A stretch of 35,937 nt of DNA from a virus: positions 1 through 35,937 of IMG/VR virus record IMGVR_UViG_3300042545_000320, one strand, 5' to 3'. The number at the start of each line of letters is the position of its first letter. Positions within the stretch are counted from its first letter, which is position 1. Below, piece after piece: positions 24,021-35,937 of this stretch. The position numbers and the translations under genes are program-made. The notes under the pieces were generated by a model. That model ran no database searches. It was not told the DNA's origin and was given only the letters and a program-made list of their open reading frames with translations.

Positions 24021-26519
24021 CTAGGCAAAAAAATCATCGAGGGTTGCGACTTCTTCAGTTTTCCAACTGATGGCGTCGCAGATTAAAGTCAGTGGCTTTA
24101 GAAACGCAGCATTAAACTGACGGTCGTAGTCAATATGTTGTTCCAAATTAAATTGTTTGGGCAATACATTTAGGACGGCAAATACATCCTCGTGCAGAGG
24201 ATTGGGAACTTTCATGTAACAATACTTGATTTTATCTCCGTCCGTAATTGCATTATACTTCTTTTCTAAATTATTGTCAAGCAGTAATTTGTTAAAAAGT
24301 AGAGCACCACGAACATGGATTGGTGTTCCGCCACGATAGATATGAGTATCTGACTTGTAGTCAGTGAGACTCGAGCATCCACGAGGCGAAGCGATTTCTT
24401 CAAAGGACAGCTTGCCAAATTCTTCACGGAAACCGTCAATGAATTGAATCAATTCAAGTTGAGTTCCACGAATAATAATCTGCAACGCTTGCCTAATTTT
24501 ATTGCGACAGACTTCAGGAGTCGAGGATTTGACAGCCTCAATACCCATAATCTTCAGATCAGGTTCTTTATACCGAACACCCTCATTGTCCCAGACATTC
24601 AGAATGTATCGTTTCTTGGCAGTCCAGATACCACGGTCGGCAATCGCTTCGCGCTTCATCTTCATGTTCTGCATGTAGGCATTGGTATTGTCAGCTAATT
24701 CCTGAAACTTCTGATCGATAAAAGGTTCGAGCTTTTGTTGGCAGACTTTGTCGAGGAAGTTGACAGTTGTTTCTTTGTCTTTGTTTGGGCAAGCCATGTC
24801 AACCAAATCGCCGAGACGAAGATAGATCGAGTCAGTATCCGAAGCAATAACGAAACGCTTCTCTTTGCCTGTCAGCTTCGCAAGATAGGCATCCATCGCA
24901 TCACCAACATACCGAATACCATACTGACCAGAGAAGGTGATAGCTTCAGCAAACTGCAGCTTATACCAACGGAAGTAGACGTTACCAACTGCACCGAACA
25001 GAGAGTTGAGAATAATCTTCTTGGCCATCTGCATGTTATTACAGCGAGAGATCTCTGCTTCAATCGCCTTAGACTTACCTTCAGACTGCTTGCGCTTTTT
25101 CGCATCAGTCATCTTGTTCTTCCACATCGTTCGGTCGGCATACATCTTTTCGACCAGCTGCGGGAACATACCTTTCTCGTTCTTGTTCCAGACTGTTCCG
25201 TTGGCAGCAATCGCAAGATTTTCTTCTCGAGCATCCTCAAGTATGCTTGGTTTGATTCCATCCTTGAGTAGATTGTCGATTGAAGGGAAGTTAGGCAGCA
25301 TACCAGCATAAGTCTCAGGAGACATATTATATTGAACAATCAGGCTGGGATACAGAGAGTTAACGTCAAACGAAGCCACCCAATCGTGCATGCCAGTGAC
25401 AGGCTCAAGAACGAATGCGCCTTCAAACTGATTCTTCTTTTCTCCACGCTTGATCTGATTGACAACCATCTTCTGCTCGAGCATGAAGTTATGAATGATC
25501 ACATCCCAGAGCAACACAGAAGTAAAGGAATCTTCAAGATTGACCTTGGCATCATACGCGATCGCATACGCGAGCTCGATGAGAGCCATCTTCTCGTCAA
25601 GTTTCTTGACCAGTTCTACATCTCGAATGTTGTATTCGATGAACCGCTGGGGATCCTGCTTATACATACCAGCAAGAGTCTCAAATTCACTGTAGTCAAT
25701 CTTACGTTCGCCAAGTTCGACATAAGCAATATGGTCGAGGCGATAGTTTTCTTGCTTGGTATATGTAAACTTGGTGTAGAGACGTTGATAGTCTAGAGCA
25801 GATATGCCCATGATGTCATACGACTGTTGCTCGCGACCCCACATCTCAACCGACTTTTCTTTGAGCCAACCCCAAGGCGAAAACCCAGCAGCATACTCAT
25901 CGCCGAACAGCTTCTTGTAACGATTGACCAGATACGGAATATCGAAGAACTCAATATACCAGCCAGTCATGACATCAAAGTCAAACTGTTTCCAGAACTT
26001 CATGAATGCACGAAGCATACTCAGTTCGTCATCGTAGAGGAGCGCTTCTACATCATCGCGATGCTTCTTATATTGTAGAGTGGTGAACACATAATACTTG
26101 CCGCGAAACTCAACGGTGATGGCGTTGATAGCCTTGTCCGCTTTGTCAGGATTTGGGAATCCATCATCAGACTCGACCTCGATATCCAGATCGGCAACAC
26201 GAATCTGATCACGATCGTATTGAATTTCTCCTGGATAATAATCGTTCAAGAATGCATAGACCCACTTGTCCATGCCATAGATCTCGAATCCTGAGACTTC
26301 GTCATAAGTTTTGGTAAATTCTCTGGCTTCCTTGATAGAATCAAATTCTATCTTGTCGACCATAGCTCCAGAGATTGTTCTGTATTCTGGATCTGGCTTC
26401 CTTGACGGAACGAACAGATATGGGTTGTATGGAATTTTGGTCGAAACCCTGCGACCATCTTCATATCCACGAAGAAAAATAAAATTACCACGCAATGCTG
26501 CGTTGGTGTAGAATCGCAT
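24021..26519 (-). CDS. 43: Replicative DNA polymerase, T4 gp43-like (family B)
   Basis: An 832-aa family-B polymerase with 3'-5' exonuclease. Exo I is VADLDIEVES with D112 and E114, the same numbering as in T4, and Exo II/III-type segments follow (FDVMTGWYIEFFDIPY). Polymerase motif A is SFDVNSLYPSLI (near 384), motif B is KKIILNSLFGAVGN and motif C is ASDTDSIYL (near 560). The C-terminus EVATLDDFFA is a likely sliding-clamp-binding peptide, as at the end of T4 gp43. It starts behind its own promoter (26552-26580). No intein or split is present; the length is slightly below T4's 898. Confidence 0.97.
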   Translation of the reverse strand: MRFYTNAALRGNFIFLRGYEDGRRVSTKIPYNPYLFVPSRKPDPEYRTISGAMVDKIEFDSIKEAREFTKTYDEVSGFEIYGMDKWVYAFLNDYYPGEIQYDRDQIRVADLDIEVESDDGFPNPDKADKAINAITVEFRGKYYVFTTLQYKKHRDDVEALLYDDELSMLRAFMKFWKQFDFDVMTGWYIEFFDIPYLVNRYKKLFGDEYAAGFSPWGWLKEKSVEMWGREQQSYDIMGISALDYQRLYTKFTYTKQENYRLDHIAYVELGERKIDYSEFETLAGMYKQDPQRFIEYNIRDVELVKKLDEKMALIELAYAIAYDAKVNLEDSFTSVLLWDVIIHNFMLEQKMVVNQIKRGEKKNQFEGAFVLEPVTGMHDWVASFDVNSLYPSLIVQYNMSPETYAGMLPNFPSIDNLLKDGIKPSILEDAREENLAIAANGTVWNKNEKGMFPQLVEKMYADRTMWKNKMTDAKKRKQSEGKSKAIEAEISRCNNMQMAKKIILNSLFGAVGNVYFRWYKLQFAEAITFSGQYGIRYVGDAMDAYLAKLTGKEKRFVIASDTDSIYLRLGDLVDMACPNKDKETTVNFLDKVCQQKLEPFIDQKFQELADNTNAYMQNMKMKREAIADRGIWTAKKRYILNVWDNEGVRYKEPDLKIMGIEAVKSSTPEVCRNKIRQALQIIIRGTQLELIQFIDGFREEFGKLSFEEIASPRGCSSLTDYKSDTHIYRGGTPIHVRGALLFNKLLLDNNLEKKYNAITDGDKIKYCYMKVPNPLHEDVFAVLNVLPKQFNLEQHIDYDRQFNAAFLKPLTLICDAISWKTEEVATLDDFFA

Positions 26520-30870: not shown

Positions 30871-31695
30871 TTAACCAAAAAATGAATCTAGTGCATTTTC
30901 AGCAGCCTGAATCTTGTTCGGCTTTACCATACGGCTATCGCGCAGCTTGAGTTCGGCGTGTCCTGTTGTTTCACGAATATACATCTTACAATATTCAGGG
31001 AAGGCATCGGCAATAATCTGAATGCTCTTCTGGACATATTCCTTGGTGCGAATATCCTGAAGACCACCTTCTTCTTTGTAGTAGCGAGACTTGACAGTAT
31101 ACTTGTCTAGACGAACGACAGCTTCATTCTTGATGTATTGACGAATAGAATATTCATAATCTTCGCCGTGGTTAGTGATACGTTCAAGGAAGTCGGCGTG
31201 TTCAACAATGACACCAAACATAGAAGCGATGATGTAGCAGAGCTCTGTATAAACACGATCCTTCATAAAGTATGCGTTGGCAGCTGCATAGATACCGAAG
31301 GTTTTGGCCCCAGCTTTTTCGCAAGCCTCGAAACCCTGGATGATAATTTCTTTTTCAAGATCCTCAACCCGACCAAGCTTCTGTTCGCTGATCTTTACCT
31401 GCACTTCTTCGATGTCATCATCAAACATCATCAGCTTTGTGCCTTCAGGATACCAACGCTCAATAAAGTTGCGCTGCGCACCAATAGTAGGAACACCTCG
31501 AACAATCTCAATATCCTTGGCGTAAGGATTATCCTTCAACGCATTCGCATATCGATCATACTCGCCTTCTTCCTGATCATTGACAAAGATCTTAATCTTG
31601 GCAGGGTCAATATTATACGACTCAAGAACTTTCAGAGTCTTGTTCTGAACAGTCTTTTCGCGATGATAAGAAGGGATAGCAATACAATAATCCAT
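30871..31695 (-). CDS. Glycosyltransferase, TET/JBP-associated (TAGT)-like, 274 aa
   Basis: Opens MDYCIAIPSYHREKTVQNKT, a GT-A-type start seen in phage glycosyltransferases associated with TET/JBP dioxygenases. Then come IKIFVNDQEEGEYDRYANAL, GVPTIGAQRNFIERWY and the metal/sugar-binding triad FDDDIEEVQV (D92-D94). It starts 10 bp after the dioxygenase stop, so the two are co-expressed. The expected role is sugar transfer onto a hydroxylated base in phage DNA; a protein or polysaccharide target is the alternative. The C-terminus AENALDSFFG closely resembles the polymerase and dioxygenase C-termini, suggesting a sliding-clamp-binding tail. Confidence 0.75.
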   Translation of the reverse strand: MDYCIAIPSYHREKTVQNKTLKVLESYNIDPAKIKIFVNDQEEGEYDRYANALKDNPYAKDIEIVRGVPTIGAQRNFIERWYPEGTKLMMFDDDIEEVQVKISEQKLGRVEDLEKEIIIQGFEACEKAGAKTFGIYAAANAYFMKDRVYTELCYIIASMFGVIVEHADFLERITNHGEDYEYSIRQYIKNEAVVRLDKYTVKSRYYKEEGGLQDIRTKEYVQKSIQIIADAFPEYCKMYIRETTGHAELKLRDSRMVKPNKIQAAENALDSFFG

Positions 31696-31705
31696 AATAT
31701 ATCCT

Positions 31706-33040
31706 TTAGAAGAAATTCTCTAGAGAGTTTTCCATAACCTGATTGACGATTCCGTCCTCATCTTCAAGACCTTTCGAGGCCAAGAAGTCACCCCACTCTT
31801 GGCTTTCCCACATCGAAGGCGAGACACCGTTCCAGAGTGGACGCTGCATAGGATGGTCTTTGTTTGTTCGACGAGTCTCAACGAACTCGCGACGAGCCGA
31901 CTCATACTGCCAAGATCTTAGATCTAGCATTTTTTCGCGGAAGTAGCAGACCAAAGAGATACGCTCAGCTTCTGCATTAGTTAGAACGATTGGGGTGTTC
32001 CCGTGAATAATTTCGTGATTGTTTACCAAAAGTAGATCTCCAGGACGGACGTTGACTGCAATCCTGAGTTCTGGAAAAACCAGATAGCCACCTGTATAAT
32101 CACCCGATCCAACGACCAGCAGATTACTCAGACCACTATCAAGATCGCCAGCATCACGGTGCGCAGCAGTGCGGAATGATTTATTGACTGTGATTGTTGT
32201 AAAGACAGTCTCAGGAACAAGGAAGCGAGGGTCAATTTTATCTGCAGCTGCACGCTGATTGCTCCACTTCAAGGGAAGCAGTTCTTTGTAACCACGATTA
32301 AGTGACTGTAGAAACGGAAATGATTTTTCGAAAGTTTCGAAGTTCTTCTCGGTGAAAGAAGTGGCGCGACCCCAAGGAATACGAGGATAGCGATCGTACC
32401 AGCCAGCAACACCAGAGAACACAGACTTAGCATAGTTCGTCACGCTGATCCACTGATCATGAACCAGTTTGGCCTGACGAATCTGTTCATCGTCAGATTG
32501 CTTGACCAGTTCGTAAGCCCACTTGTCGAACCAACCAAAATACTCTGGATACTTTTCGCAGACTTTGCTACGAAGCCAGACCCGACCACGAGTTTCGTCG
32601 GACGGAGCATTGTTGCCATATTTGAGTTTGATTGTTTCAAGAGTTTCGTCGGCAACGATTGCGTTGCGAGGACGGAGAAACCAGCTAAGAACTTCTTCTT
32701 CGTAGTCAGTCACCCACTCGCGACCGCCACGATGTTCAGTCGACAGCATTTCGCCACGAGGTCCAGCTGCCAGTCCACGATTCTGACTTTCTACTGCAGC
32801 TTCGCGTAGACCAGCGTAAGCGCCATCCTGTTCTTCTTGACTGAAGAAGTTCTTGCGGAACTTAAATGCGATGCGATTTTCATCTACACCATCTTCGGTG
32901 GAACCAGTAAGGGCAGAACCTGACGGAAAGTAACCATCATAATCTTCTTCAACTAGAAGATCGTAATGACTCTCATCAAGAAACTGACCAAGTAAATGCT
33001 CGCAGTTGTGTTTTTCTGTGGCAACAATTACCTTTACCAT
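31706..33040 (-). CDS. TET/JBP-like 2OG-Fe(II) dioxygenase, 444 aa
   Basis: The catalytic domain is at about 275-370. FTTITVNKSFRTAAHRDAGD contains H294-x-D296, SGDYTGGYLVFPELRIAVNV is the core sheet, IIHGNTP contains the second iron ligand H346, and ERISLVCYF contains R360 for 2-oxoglutarate. The 'N-sFRTa-HrD-GD' and 'HGN-p...ERiSlV-Yfr' phrases are those of phage TET/JBP enzymes, which oxidise the methyl group of 5-methylcytosine or thymine in DNA. Residues 100-250 form a helical, Trp-rich domain of unknown role. The last residues, MENSLENFF, look like a clamp-binding peptide. A consensus promoter lies upstream (33070-33098) and an AAGGAGATATA leader precedes the ATG. Substrate base is not determined. 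Confidence 0.83.
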   Translation of the reverse strand: MVKVIVATEKHNCEHLLGQFLDESHYDLLVEEDYDGYFPSGSALTGSTEDGVDENRIAFKFRKNFFSQEEQDGAYAGLREAAVESQNRGLAAGPRGEMLSTEHRGGREWVTDYEEEVLSWFLRPRNAIVADETLETIKLKYGNNAPSDETRGRVWLRSKVCEKYPEYFGWFDKWAYELVKQSDDEQIRQAKLVHDQWISVTNYAKSVFSGVAGWYDRYPRIPWGRATSFTEKNFETFEKSFPFLQSLNRGYKELLPLKWSNQRAAADKIDPRFLVPETVFTTITVNKSFRTAAHRDAGDLDSGLSNLLVVGSGDYTGGYLVFPELRIAVNVRPGDLLLVNNHEIIHGNTPIVLTNAEAERISLVCYFREKMLDLRSWQYESARREFVETRRTNKDHPMQRPLWNGVSPSMWESQEWGDFLASKGLEDEDGIVNQVMENSLENFF

Positions 33041-33098: not shown

Positions 33099-33511
33099 GC
33101 ACTTTCTTCATTTATAAATGAAGAATACGAAGTATCCCAAGGAAAGAGAACAGACTTCAAGTTAGGTTCCTCGTAGTTTGGACCCTTTTTAATTTTGCCA
33201 TCTTCTCGGTAAAGTGGCTTCCCGTCTTCACCAAGCTTGGTCATATTTGACCGCTGGACTTCAGCAAAGCATTTATCTAAATCAATACCGAATGCCAGAC
33301 CAGCACCATAAGTGACATAGAGAATATCTGTAAGAGCATCAGCCACTTCAACAATATCATTGTCCTTGAGAGCTTCGCGAAGTTCTTTTAGTTCTTCGGC
33401 AATCAATTTTACTCTTAGAGCTTGAACATTTCGTTTGGGAAGTTTTGGAGTATCCTTTACTTCTTGTCCAAACACACTCATAAATTCACGAACCATATTA
33501 AAATTTGTCAT
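33095..33511 (-). CDS. MazG-like nucleotide pyrophosphohydrolase, 138 aa
   Basis: ATG at 33511 (MTNFNMVREFMSVFGQ) is used, since it overlaps the regA stop as TAATG. An all-helical NTP-PPase core has the paired acidic motif E39-E40-x2-E43 (LIAEELKELREAL) and E55-x2-D58 (DIVEVADALTDILYVTYG), which binds Mg2+. This family hydrolyses nucleoside triphosphates to monophosphates, and in phages is linked to clearing non-canonical or host nucleotides or tuning dNTP pools. Its C-terminal codons form one arm of a 22-bp palindrome next to the following promoter. Confidence 0.88.
   Translation of the reverse strand: MTNFNMVREFMSVFGQEVKDTPKLPKRNVQALRVKLIAEELKELREALKDNDIVEVADALTDILYVTYGAGLAFGIDLDKCFAEVQRSNMTKLGEDGKPLYREDGKIKKGPNYEEPNLKSVLFPWDTSYSSFINEESA
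33104..33125. repeat. 22-bp perfect palindrome upstream of the consensus promoter
   Basis: A perfect inverted repeat with no spacer, centred between 33114 and 33115; each arm begins TTCTTCATTTA. It lies within the last codons of the MazG-like gene and ends 6 bp before the -35 box at 33093-33098. It could be an operator or UP-type element for the promoter, or an RNA hairpin at the end of the clamp-loader transcript. Protein coding alone does not require it. Confidence 0.7.
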
Positions 33512-33903
33512 TATTTCTTGTTTCCGATACTGTATTTCGCCAAGCACTGCCAATCACCCTTTTCCTTGTAGGAGATGATTTTAATGTGCGACACAGGAAC
33601 AACAGGTTCCTTTGTCTTTTCTTTGTCAACAACCTCAATCAGACCCCATTCTTCAAGTAGATTGGCAATAGTATTTCTACGAGCCTCATCATTTTCACAG
33701 AAGTCTGTGTTCTTTTTACCATCAAGCAGGAACAATTCCTTGAAGTGCATGATGTAGTATTTGCCTTGTTTGTGTAGGATATGACAAGATTGATAGAGAG
33801 TGTTGTTCTTTTTTGAAGCAACCCCAATGCGTGTCAGTGTTTCCTTAACGAGAAGGAAATTATCTGGGTCTATGAGTTTAACCTCTACTAAATCTTCAAT
33901 CAT
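33511..33903 (-). CDS. regA: Translational repressor RegA
   Basis: Binds the initiation regions of many early phage mRNAs and blocks ribosomes. The 130-aa sequence follows T4 RegA closely in order: FLLVKETLTRIGVA, LYQSCHILHKQGKYYIMHFK, DEARRNTIANLLEEWGLIEV and HIKIISYKEKGDW. It sits directly after gp62, as expected for the T4 cluster. Likely targets include gp44 and its own operon, but that is inferred from T4. Confidence 0.95.
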   Translation of the reverse strand: MIEDLVEVKLIDPDNFLLVKETLTRIGVASKKNNTLYQSCHILHKQGKYYIMHFKELFLLDGKKNTDFCENDEARRNTIANLLEEWGLIEVVDKEKTKEPVVPVSHIKIISYKEKGDWQCLAKYSIGNKK

Positions 33904-33907
33904 ATTT

Positions 33908-34294
33908 TTATCCGCCAGTTTCGAGTTTCTTTTTTATATTCTGGATTTGTTCAACAGTAAGAACAGAGAGGGCTTCCTCAGCTCTCTTGATGCTGTACCC
34001 ATAATATTGGGCAATATCTTTAGCATCTTGAGAAACAACTGTTTTTGCTTGCTTCGAAAACCTTTTCCTTCTATTTATTGAATTCAGAAAGTAGTCAAAC
34101 TGTTGGATATTGGATAGATGGAAGTTCTTATTCATCTCGTTTGCATAAAGAACAGAGTCTTCAAAATAAGAAAGAGTCTTATTTGTTATCCAAGGATTAT
34201 AATCCTTCTCTGCCAATTCTGGATTAGCTGAATTACGAATAATATCTTTCTTATTGTAAGAAACGTCAGTTATGTAGTCAAAGGGATTGCTCAT
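33908..34294 (-). CDS. 62: Clamp loader small subunit, T4 gp62-like
   Basis: Acts with four gp44 subunits to load the gp45 clamp. The 128-aa sequence contains NPFDYITDVSYNKKDII, DYNPWITNKTLSYFEDSVLY, ANEMNKNFHLSNIQQFDYFL and AQYYGYSIKRAEEALSVL, all in the order of gp62 proteins. It is shorter than T4 gp62 (187 aa), as in marine relatives. ATG overlaps the gp44 stop (ATGA), coupling the 4:1 subunits at translation. Confidence 0.92.
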   Translation of the reverse strand: MSNPFDYITDVSYNKKDIIRNSANPELAEKDYNPWITNKTLSYFEDSVLYANEMNKNFHLSNIQQFDYFLNSINRRKRFSKQAKTVVSQDAKDIAQYYGYSIKRAEEALSVLTVEQIQNIKKKLETGG

Positions 34295-35229
34295 TTGAAG
34301 GAGCAGGTTGACATAATTTCCAGGAATGCTGCTGCCAGATTGATTTCTGCATTAGCAACAAACGCTGCCTGATACTGATATTTTGCCAGAATCAAAATAA
34401 GATCAGGAATACTGGATGGCACCATCAAGTCATAGGCTGCATCATATAGACTCTTGAAGAGAACATCAGAGTCGATGTCAGAGTTCTCGCCGACCCACTT
34501 ACGAACAGCAGGGAAATCGCCATTCTTCATGAACCCGATGAGAGTCTTGAACGCTTCTTCCGAGAAGTTGGCTAGGATACCTTCATCGATGGCACCAGTA
34601 ACCGAATAACGCTGAAGTTCGTTTAGAACACGACGCCAGTCTGGATAATGGCTGGTGATGACAGCAGCAACAACCTTCTTGTCAAAGGGAACACCCTCGC
34701 CTTCAAGAATACCGCATGCACGCTTGAGGAACTGCGCAGCTAGGCTGGGCAGGTCGGCTTTCTTAATCTTGAAGTCGACAACCGAACAACGAGACTGAAG
34801 CGGATCAATGATACGATTCTTGAAGTTGCAGGTCATAATGAACCCACAGTTCGCCGAATATTCTTCCATGAAATTGCGGAGAGCTGGTTGGGTTGAGTTG
34901 GCATTCAGATAGTCAGCCTCGTCGAGAATGACATACTTGCGACCGCCAGTGAAACTGACAGCCGATGCATAGTTACGAATTTCGTTTCGAAGAACGTCAA
35001 TGTTACCATTCATTGAGCCATTGATCACGATATAATCGCAACCAAGTTCTTCGAGCATAGCCTTGGCTATCGTAGTCTTACCGCAACCAGCAGGGCCAGA
35101 AAGAAGAAGATTAGGTACATTTTTTTGGTTTACAAACTCCTGGAAAGTTTTCTTCAGTGTATCGGGAAGGATACAGTCGTCAACGGTCTTAGGGCGATAC
35201 TTCTCGACCCAAAGGAAATCTTCGCTCAT
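34291..35229 (-). CDS. 44: Clamp loader large (ATPase) subunit, T4 gp44-like
   Basis: AAA+ ATPase that opens the gp45 ring and places it on DNA. The 312-aa protein has Walker A GPAGCGKT (45-52), Walker B YVILDEAD with the DEAD box (103-106), sensor-1 IMTCNF and the SRC motif (146-148, LQSRCSVV) carrying the arginine finger. The opening FLWVEKYRPKTVDD is typical of clamp loaders. A long inverted repeat separates it from gp45, and its ribosome region reads GGAGATATATTATG. Confidence 0.96.
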   Translation of the reverse strand: MSEDFLWVEKYRPKTVDDCILPDTLKKTFQEFVNQKNVPNLLLSGPAGCGKTTIAKAMLEELGCDYIVINGSMNGNIDVLRNEIRNYASAVSFTGGRKYVILDEADYLNANSTQPALRNFMEEYSANCGFIMTCNFKNRIIDPLQSRCSVVDFKIKKADLPSLAAQFLKRACGILEGEGVPFDKKVVAAVITSHYPDWRRVLNELQRYSVTGAIDEGILANFSEEAFKTLIGFMKNGDFPAVRKWVGENSDIDSDVLFKSLYDAAYDLMVPSSIPDLILILAKYQYQAAFVANAEINLAAAFLEIMSTCSFK

Positions 35230-35254
35230 AATATATCTCCATCACAAAAAATAA

Positions 35255-35316
35255 TCCCGATCGGGAAGTTTTAGTCCAGATTTTCTTGCATGGACCAAAA
35301 TATTCCCGATCGGGAA
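35255..35316 (-). terminator. 62-bp quasi-palindrome between gp45 and gp44: attenuator-like hairpin
   Basis: Two copies of TCCCGATCGGGA (35255-35266 and 35304-35315; the second extended to TTCCCGATCGGGAA) flank an inverted pair TTTTAGTCCA / TGGACCAAAA with a 12-nt loop. The whole element is therefore nearly self-complementary. As minus-strand RNA it can form one stem of about 22 pairs (a G-U pair and a small bulge) or separate short hairpins. It is followed by TTATTTTTTG, which gives an intrinsic-terminator shape. It could lower gp44/gp62 expression relative to gp45. Function is inferred. Confidence 0.7.
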
Positions 35317-35325
35317 GGTTCACAA

Positions 35326-35937
35326 TTAAGCGAAAGTTGAATTGCTCTCAGTTGCAATCCAATAAACTACGCTGTCAGAAGAGAAGCGAGAGATCTTCTT
35401 GCTCGATACTTCAACGCTATAGTTGCCAGGAAGAATCTTCGAAAGATATTCAGGCTTAAACACAGCGGTAAATTCTCTATCGCAAGTTCCAAGTTCTTCA
35501 TTGAATTGATCACAACCAACATCCTTGCTCGCAAAGGCACGCATATACAGCTTTCCACCTTCGCCAACGATGGCAATTTCAGGAAGCTGAAGAACACCAG
35601 TTGCCTTGACCACCGAGCTAAGAGCTTCTTGCGTCAGATTAAAGACAACCTCTGCTTCAGGAAACTGAATTTCCTTGGCAGGTGCAGCAACGATGACATT
35701 TTCTTGGCAGAAGCGATACACAACCTTCTGCTTGCCACCCTTGATGATCACAGCGCTGTCATCAAATTCCAGTTCTGGATCCTTAAACAAAGAAATAACT
35801 GACAGGAATCGGTTGAGATCATAGATACAGAAGGACTTTTCGAAATTATCTGAGATAGTTGCCTTCGAGAGCAGAGTCTTGAGTGGCGAGATAGTCGAAA
35901 GAGTATTTCCTTCTGTAATCTTGATGCCTTGGTTAAT
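35326..35937 (-). CDS. 45: Sliding clamp (DNA polymerase processivity factor), T4 gp45-like, N-terminus cut by window edge
   Basis: Trimeric ring that tethers gp43 to DNA and, in T4, also activates late transcription. The frame is open to the window edge, giving 203 residues. FCIYDLNRFLSVISLFKDPE matches the T4 IYDLNGFL region, and SDSVVYWIATESNSTFA matches the C-terminal strand just before the stop. The middle contains VVAAPAKEIQFPEAEVVFNL and YLSKILPGNYSVEVSSK, as in gp45 proteins. About 20-25 N-terminal residues are probably missing, judged from T4 gp45 (228 aa). Confidence 0.93.
   Translation of the reverse strand: MNQGIKITEGNTLSTISPLKTLLSKATISDNFEKSFCIYDLNRFLSVISLFKDPELEFDDSAVIIKGGKQKVVYRFCQENVIVAAPAKEIQFPEAEVVFNLTQEALSSVVKATGVLQLPEIAIVGEGGKLYMRAFASKDVGCDQFNEELGTCDREFTAVFKPEYLSKILPGNYSVEVSSKKISRFSSDSVVYWIATESNSTFA

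Follow-up and report, generated by a model that had tools for sequence, protein, structure and literature searches.

What are two identical palindromes doing in the short gap between the sliding-clamp and clamp-loader genes of a T4-like phage? The question arises from a 35,937-base IMG/VR virus record, analyzed here over its whole length and termed the window below. We take the window to be a piece of a larger T4-like genome, given its 36-kb length relative to typical genome size. The genes that frame the locus are the following:

35326-35937, minus strand: gp45 sliding clamp, C-terminal part (Pfam gp45-slide_C), open at the window end
34291-35229, minus strand: gp44 clamp-loader ATPase (Pfam Gp44_lid)
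33908-34294, minus strand: gp62-like clamp-loader subunit (PHROG 225)
33511-33903, minus strand: RegA translational repressor (PHROG 242)
24021-26519, minus strand: DNA polymerase, a window ORF

Architecture of the gp45-gp44 gap

The gap comprises 96 bp and contains TCCCGATCGGGA twice, in exact form, at 35255-35266 and 35304-35315, that is, 49 bp apart from start to start, as the initial annotation had described. When up to two mismatches to TCCCGATCGGGA were allowed, one further site appeared in the window, at 26185 (shuffled sequences gave a mean of 0.71 in all). The parts of the element, some of which recur in two other viral contigs treated below (L224 and L221), were as follows:

35303..35316, minus strand: box 1, TTCCCGATCGGGAA, gp45-proximal and 5' outer arm of a hairpin; a putative HipB-type operator palindrome by its match to hipBA operators
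35291..35300, minus strand: inner 5' arm, TTTTGGTCCA, from the fold; common to L224 and partly to L221
35269..35278, minus strand: inner 3' arm, TGGACTAAAA, from the fold; likewise common to L224 and partly to L221
35254..35267, minus strand: box 2, TTCCCGATCGGGAT, gp44-proximal and 3' outer arm of the hairpin, from sequence and fold
35246..35253, minus strand: U-rich tract, TATTTTTT, terminator-like and abutting the stem, from sequence and the census of gp44 junctions
35237..35240, minus strand: GGAG, which we take to be the probable Shine-Dalgarno of gp44

On the gene strand, the hairpin is followed by UUAUUUUUU, GGAG, and the gp44 start, in that order. Folding of the minus-strand RNA from 35230 to 35330 yielded -37.5 kcal/mol, where shuffled sequences gave -19.9 (sd 2.8), a z of -6.2, with a stem of 23 bp to which the boxes contributed 13 pairs and the inner arms 10. 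The quasi-palindrome and T-rich stretch noted at the outset were thereby borne out as a hairpin with a U-run on the gene strand, and the element has the stable, GC-containing stem-loop and subsequent U-run of an intrinsic terminator; a simple terminator scanner, restricted to loops of 3-8, flagged just the small box-1 hairpin in the window. The proposal that the RNA has two states stood in part, in that both fold, but they are very unequal: two small hairpins plus the inner hairpin reached -20.8 kcal/mol, 17 weaker than the long form. A fold of the small-hairpin kind (-15.6) is what can form prior to transcription of box 2. Rfam returned no above-threshold match for the window element (the best, mir-240, scored 25.6 bits against a gathering threshold of 67.5), and our scan of the gap found no sigma-70-like promoter for gp44.

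The same pair beside hipB and hipA in bacteria

Copies of the box were sought elsewhere, as the initial annotation had proposed, and were found in both bacteria and viruses. A scan of 84,980 species genomes for two TCCCGATCGGGA-type 12-mers 34 to 64 bp apart recovered at least 119 stretches from, by record title, many phyla. Among 163 neighboring pairs, drawn from the 119 bacterial matches listed and 11 viral loci, spacings of 50 bp (82 pairs) and 49 bp (50 pairs) predominated, while 13 pairs lay 39-41 bp and five 60-62 bp apart. These distances approximate whole helical turns, consistent with sites that look out from roughly the same side of the helix.

The ORFs next to the twin boxes fell into two clusters, a large one of HTH proteins of approximately 86 residues and another made up of long proteins. 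Pfam, run on three of the box-side proteins, identified HTH_3 on two of them and HipA_C together with Couple_hipA on the third, and the closest PDB structure to the HipB of the box-side cluster was Legionella HipB(Lp), 8ezt. Within 600 bp of the boxes, hipB was present in 102 of the 119 bacterial matches listed, 93 of which also had hipA, although this count is partly circular for hipB because the hipB and hipA models were trained on ORFs adjoining the same boxes (49 and 15, respectively). Neither gene was detected within that distance in the other 17 of the 119, and the twin box is thus not a strict mark of hipBA. In the 73 of the 102 listed hip loci that fit a relaxed form of the pair pattern, a promoter-like pair of hexamers lay between the boxes in 40, against 17 expected from shuffles, and in each of nine bacterial genomes searched whole the twin pair occurred at a single place. 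Since hipB and hipA neighbor the boxes in most of the listed bacterial loci, the twin box is, by gene neighborhood, the predicted operator of a widespread hipBA group, and the palindrome combined with a 49/50-bp spacing would provide a simple rule for finding hipBA operators.

The window shares both the word and the spacing of hipBA loci in many bacteria, with two boxes of the TTCCCGATCGGGAA palindrome set 49 bp apart, and its box 2 (TTCCCGATCGGGAT) deviates at the outermost base, like some bacterial sites. Its location is unlike that of a hipBA promoter, as neither hipA nor hipB was found in the window and the boxes are flanked by gp45 and gp44; the best match to a promoter between them was 7/12.

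Two further bacterial observations concern loci of other layouts. Boxes 40-41 bp apart and with no hipBA within 600 bp were seen at L097, L128, L131, L163, L180, L193, and L195, several of which are titled Gemmatimonadetes; perhaps these serve another regulator or are orphan sites. In L127 and L151 (Sphingobium), a further ORF adjoins the twin boxes on the side opposite hipBA, and looks to us like an AbiEi-type antitoxin.

Pairs without hipBA in viral contigs

With the relaxed pattern, IMG/VR yielded 39 viral contigs carrying 32 distinct elements. Spacing was again narrow (49 bp in 21, 50 bp in 16, and 51 bp in two, with none at 47, 48, or 52), whereas the same pattern at thirty control spacings of 53-82 bp matched six viral contigs in total. 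A single 14-mer matched in 28 of 30 whole viral records, each time as one cluster; many of these records are fragments, and one pair per phage therefore holds for the records as they stand. The hipA and hipB models found nothing in 51 viral loci with boxes, nor were HTH_3 and HipA_C detected in 27 whole viral records with the pair, the window among them, and tblastn of the box-side HipB against 50,697 phage records returned no match. The presence of pairs at hipBA spacing, combined with the absence of hipBA, leads us to read the phage copies as putative orphan HipB-type operators, carried at unrelated genomic sites:

Upstream of gp44: the window and L224
At the junction of B12-dependent ribonucleotide reductase and DNA polymerase genes: L086, L088, L226, L228, and relatives
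Upstream of terminase genes: L230, L242, and L246
Directly past a tRNA array: L221
After ClpP: L085
After a DnaB-like helicase: L087

Some other phage pairs sit among small ORFs, and the viral pairs have no common target gene. In ten loci of the reductase/polymerase type, identity was 0.99 and 0.96 in the two boxes, 0.75 in the spacer, and 0.46 and 0.42 in the flanks; because the boxes are so much better kept than their surroundings, they look to be under selection in this group.

A promoter-like pair between the boxes (at least 8 of 12) was present in 6 of 19 loci of a hand-picked viral set that included the window, showing no excess over the 8.7 expected. An inner hairpin in the spacer (z below -1.5) was found in 10 of 23 viral loci versus 5 of 73 bacterial ones (Fisher p 0.00014), the viral loci being those with the pattern among 24 hand-picked ones from which GC-rich, coding, and duplicate cases had been excluded; this p is too small, because the phage rows are partly related. 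The direct-repeat boxes TTACCGATCGGGAA of the RNR-type phages pair imperfectly, and the hairpin is therefore not common to every phage copy. The window and L224 have a clear U-run behind the stem, but most other phage elements do not. In L228, L231, L232, and L236, a canonical GC hairpin of its own, with a T-run, lies approximately 20-50 nt past box 2, and in these loci the operator pair itself is therefore not the terminator. Thirteen of the 32 viral elements fall within ORFs of at least 80 codons, some of them short or doubtful and one long (that of L247, with 771 codons), and some of the viral pairs may thus have no function.

Junction hairpins and the relatives of the window

We found a hairpin with a T-run upstream of gp44 in 32 of 82 gp44 loci, the window and L224 counted, against 1.5 expected from mononucleotide shuffles (ten per locus) at a score cut-off of our choosing; without these two, the census stood at 30 of 80 relatives (L001-L080). 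The hairpins of L001-L080 occupied the region 20-50 nt ahead of gp44; for most loci in the census the distance to the start codon was 20-29 nt, and the sequences were mostly unrelated. The excess identifies the gp45-gp44 junction as a recurrent place for a terminator-like hairpin; gene 45 of T4 itself is followed by a small UUCG hairpin, and DLP6 has a longer one. The attenuator or terminator reading offered initially gains to this extent. In position and U-run, the window element resembles these intercistronic hairpins and terminators of T4-like phages, but the arms of the others are unrelated sequence and not operators, whereas the window hairpin is built out of the putative operator pair, as is that of L224.

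L224 is a 4.5-kb contig whose gp44 is 55% identical to that of the window, and it carries this element in the matching position, directly before gp44. Relative to the window, two-sided changes that keep the stem were seen in a box pair (G-C to T-A) and an inner pair (C-G to T-A); a further inner pair was lost. Mismatched stem pairs numbered one in L224 and three in L221. The inner arms are common to the window, L224, and L221 only, and in L221, which comes from the same sample as L224, they are much the same and located past the tRNAs. The gp44 tree did not support a single gain of the element, as the window and L224 fell apart, requiring two changes, though L224 is on a long branch and unsure in placement. 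Because these two are not sisters and the inner arms of L221 are alike, movement of the whole element as one unit is possible; L221 and L224 might also be parts of a single phage. As a separate observation, positions 459-1818 of L221 hold five tRNAs, among them one with a CTA anticodon call that is possibly an amber suppressor.

Conservation in relatives, the check suggested initially, was accordingly found in hairpin position and in the distant L224, and not in sequence. The twin pair was absent from the 49 (of 80) gp44-relative records scanned whole, was not found in CRP-2, phiM6, DLP6, or Melnitz-3, and is lacking in L001 and L002, the nearest relatives of the window. Likewise, blastn of the window element against phages gave chance-level matches only, and a longer exact pattern of the element had zero viral matches.

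What the element may do

We propose that the gap holds an orphan HipB-type operator pair that was captured and merged with a terminator-like hairpin, an explanation to which we assign a probability of roughly 0.55. As DNA, each TTCCCGATCGGGAA box would bind the antitoxin and repressor HipB as a dimer, and the 49-bp spacing would set two dimers on about the same helix face, where a host HipB or HipB-HipA complex could bridge them, via HipA, as at hipBA promoters. With no hipBA in the phage sequence at hand, HipB would come from the host, and host HipB or HipBA, if the host has a hipBA with this operator, probably binds the phage DNA at the pair. This reading of the boxes as HipB sites is based on gene neighborhood; the operator pair proposed in the initial annotation agrees with hipBA operators in boxes and spacing. 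As RNA, the repeat and the inner arms would form a strong hairpin that, together with the U-run, partially ends transcripts after gp45, and might do so whether the operator acts as a decoy or as a switch of gp44. A decoy would keep HipB and HipBA on phage copies of the operator and shield HipB from Lon, so that the HipA toxin would remain neutralized throughout infection. This step draws on one in-vitro result, obtained with E. coli HipB on another operator, namely that a 21-bp operator oligonucleotide slows Lon decay of HipB to a half-life of over 200 min (PMC3376134).

A switch would work differently, with host HipB or HipBA on the pair blocking RNA polymerase at the terminator-like hairpin, such that gp44, gp62, regA, and later genes come on only once HipB falls, tying phage replication to the growth or dormancy state of the host. 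The position at the clamp-loader operon favors this role, since the element stands directly upstream of gp44 with its U-run ending 16 nt before the start codon, L224 has it in the same place, and the pair precedes DNA polymerase in a phage family unrelated to this one. However, other phage copies lie ahead of terminase genes, past tRNAs, and among small ORFs, the between-box promoter is not above chance in phages, and a phage would have little to gain from silencing its own clamp loader; we regard the switch as possible but doubtful. Because target genes are scattered and the promoter is missing, the decoy is slightly favored, and it is slightly more likely that the site serves the whole phage genome rather than gp44. 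Nor do we think it likely that the element acts only as RNA, as an intrinsic terminator or attenuator, or a hairpin protecting the 3' end after gp45, with arms palindromic by chance and no DNA-bound protein. The strength of the hairpin and its U-run, the junction census with its nearly always different sequences, the hairpins of T4 and DLP6, and the stem-preserving changes in L224 all agree with such a role, yet a terminator requires complementary arms and not a hipBA palindrome in each arm at hipBA spacing, and neither the viral peak at 49/50 bp over the six matches across thirty other spacings nor the preservation of boxes over spacer in ten related phage loci would be expected from it.

Phage HTH repressors are common, and a repressor encoded outside the 36-kb fragment of what is probably a larger genome could use the pair, its likeness to hipBA reflecting shared HTH specificity. 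The lack of HTH_3 in the 27 pair-bearing records, some of 42 to 79 kb, and of any tblastn match to the box-side HipB among the phage records makes this rather improbable. Least credible, and in our view very improbable, is a functionless remnant of a hipBA operon that the phage once had and of which the operator alone is left: operons with such an operator are widespread in bacteria, but the boxes are kept while flanks diverge in the ten related loci, the pair turns up repeatedly among unrelated phages, in a single cluster per record, and both boxes are intact where the promoter is gone.

For phages at large, we venture, with the odds against it, that several unrelated groups use hipBA operators as an anti-toxin DNA device. 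Replicating genomes would multiply HipB sites, holding HipB and HipB-HipA on DNA, protecting HipB from proteolysis, and keeping the HipA kinase inactive, and a hipBA-armed host could then neither enter growth arrest nor abort the infection. The T4-like phage would have packed its decoy into the terminator hairpin between clamp and clamp loader. HipBA is the classic persistence toxin-antitoxin module, yet what it does against phages is unsettled. Retention of orphan hipBA operators by phages would be direct sequence evidence that phages meet HipBA, and would suggest a counter-defense built from DNA sites and not from protein.

Relation to known operators

The word TCCCGATCGGGA was not found in any paper text searched, and phage-borne copies of hipBA or HipB operators, or operator decoys, did not appear in the titles and opening parts of abstracts covered. 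Three papers describe comparable arrangements at hip loci. E. coli hipBA has four operators of the form TATCCN8GGATA (PMC3376134), which resemble the phage pair as tandem palindromic HTH sites, there bound by HipB dimers with HipA, and differ in the word, in adjoining hipBA, and in the promoter that the phage pair lacks between its boxes. The hipBA1 and hipBA2 promoters of Caulobacter crescentus have multiple, regularly spaced HipB sites (PMC7029023), likened here by arrangement and not by letters, and those repeats are chromosomal and located at hipBA, unlike the phage pair. Legionella HipBST has three operators, O1-O3, inverted repeats at even intervals to which HipB binds (PMC10653801), which unlike the phage pair have 53-bp gaps and a longer, different site, and stand at the TA operon.

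Other ORFs near the clamp-loader genes

Two minus-strand window ORFs adjoin each other near the clamp-loader genes. The ORF at 31706-33040 belongs to PHROG 24024 (unknown) and has a weak match to queuine tRNA-ribosyltransferase, and the ORF at 30871-31695 is glucosyltransferase-like; it is possible that both are DNA modification genes.
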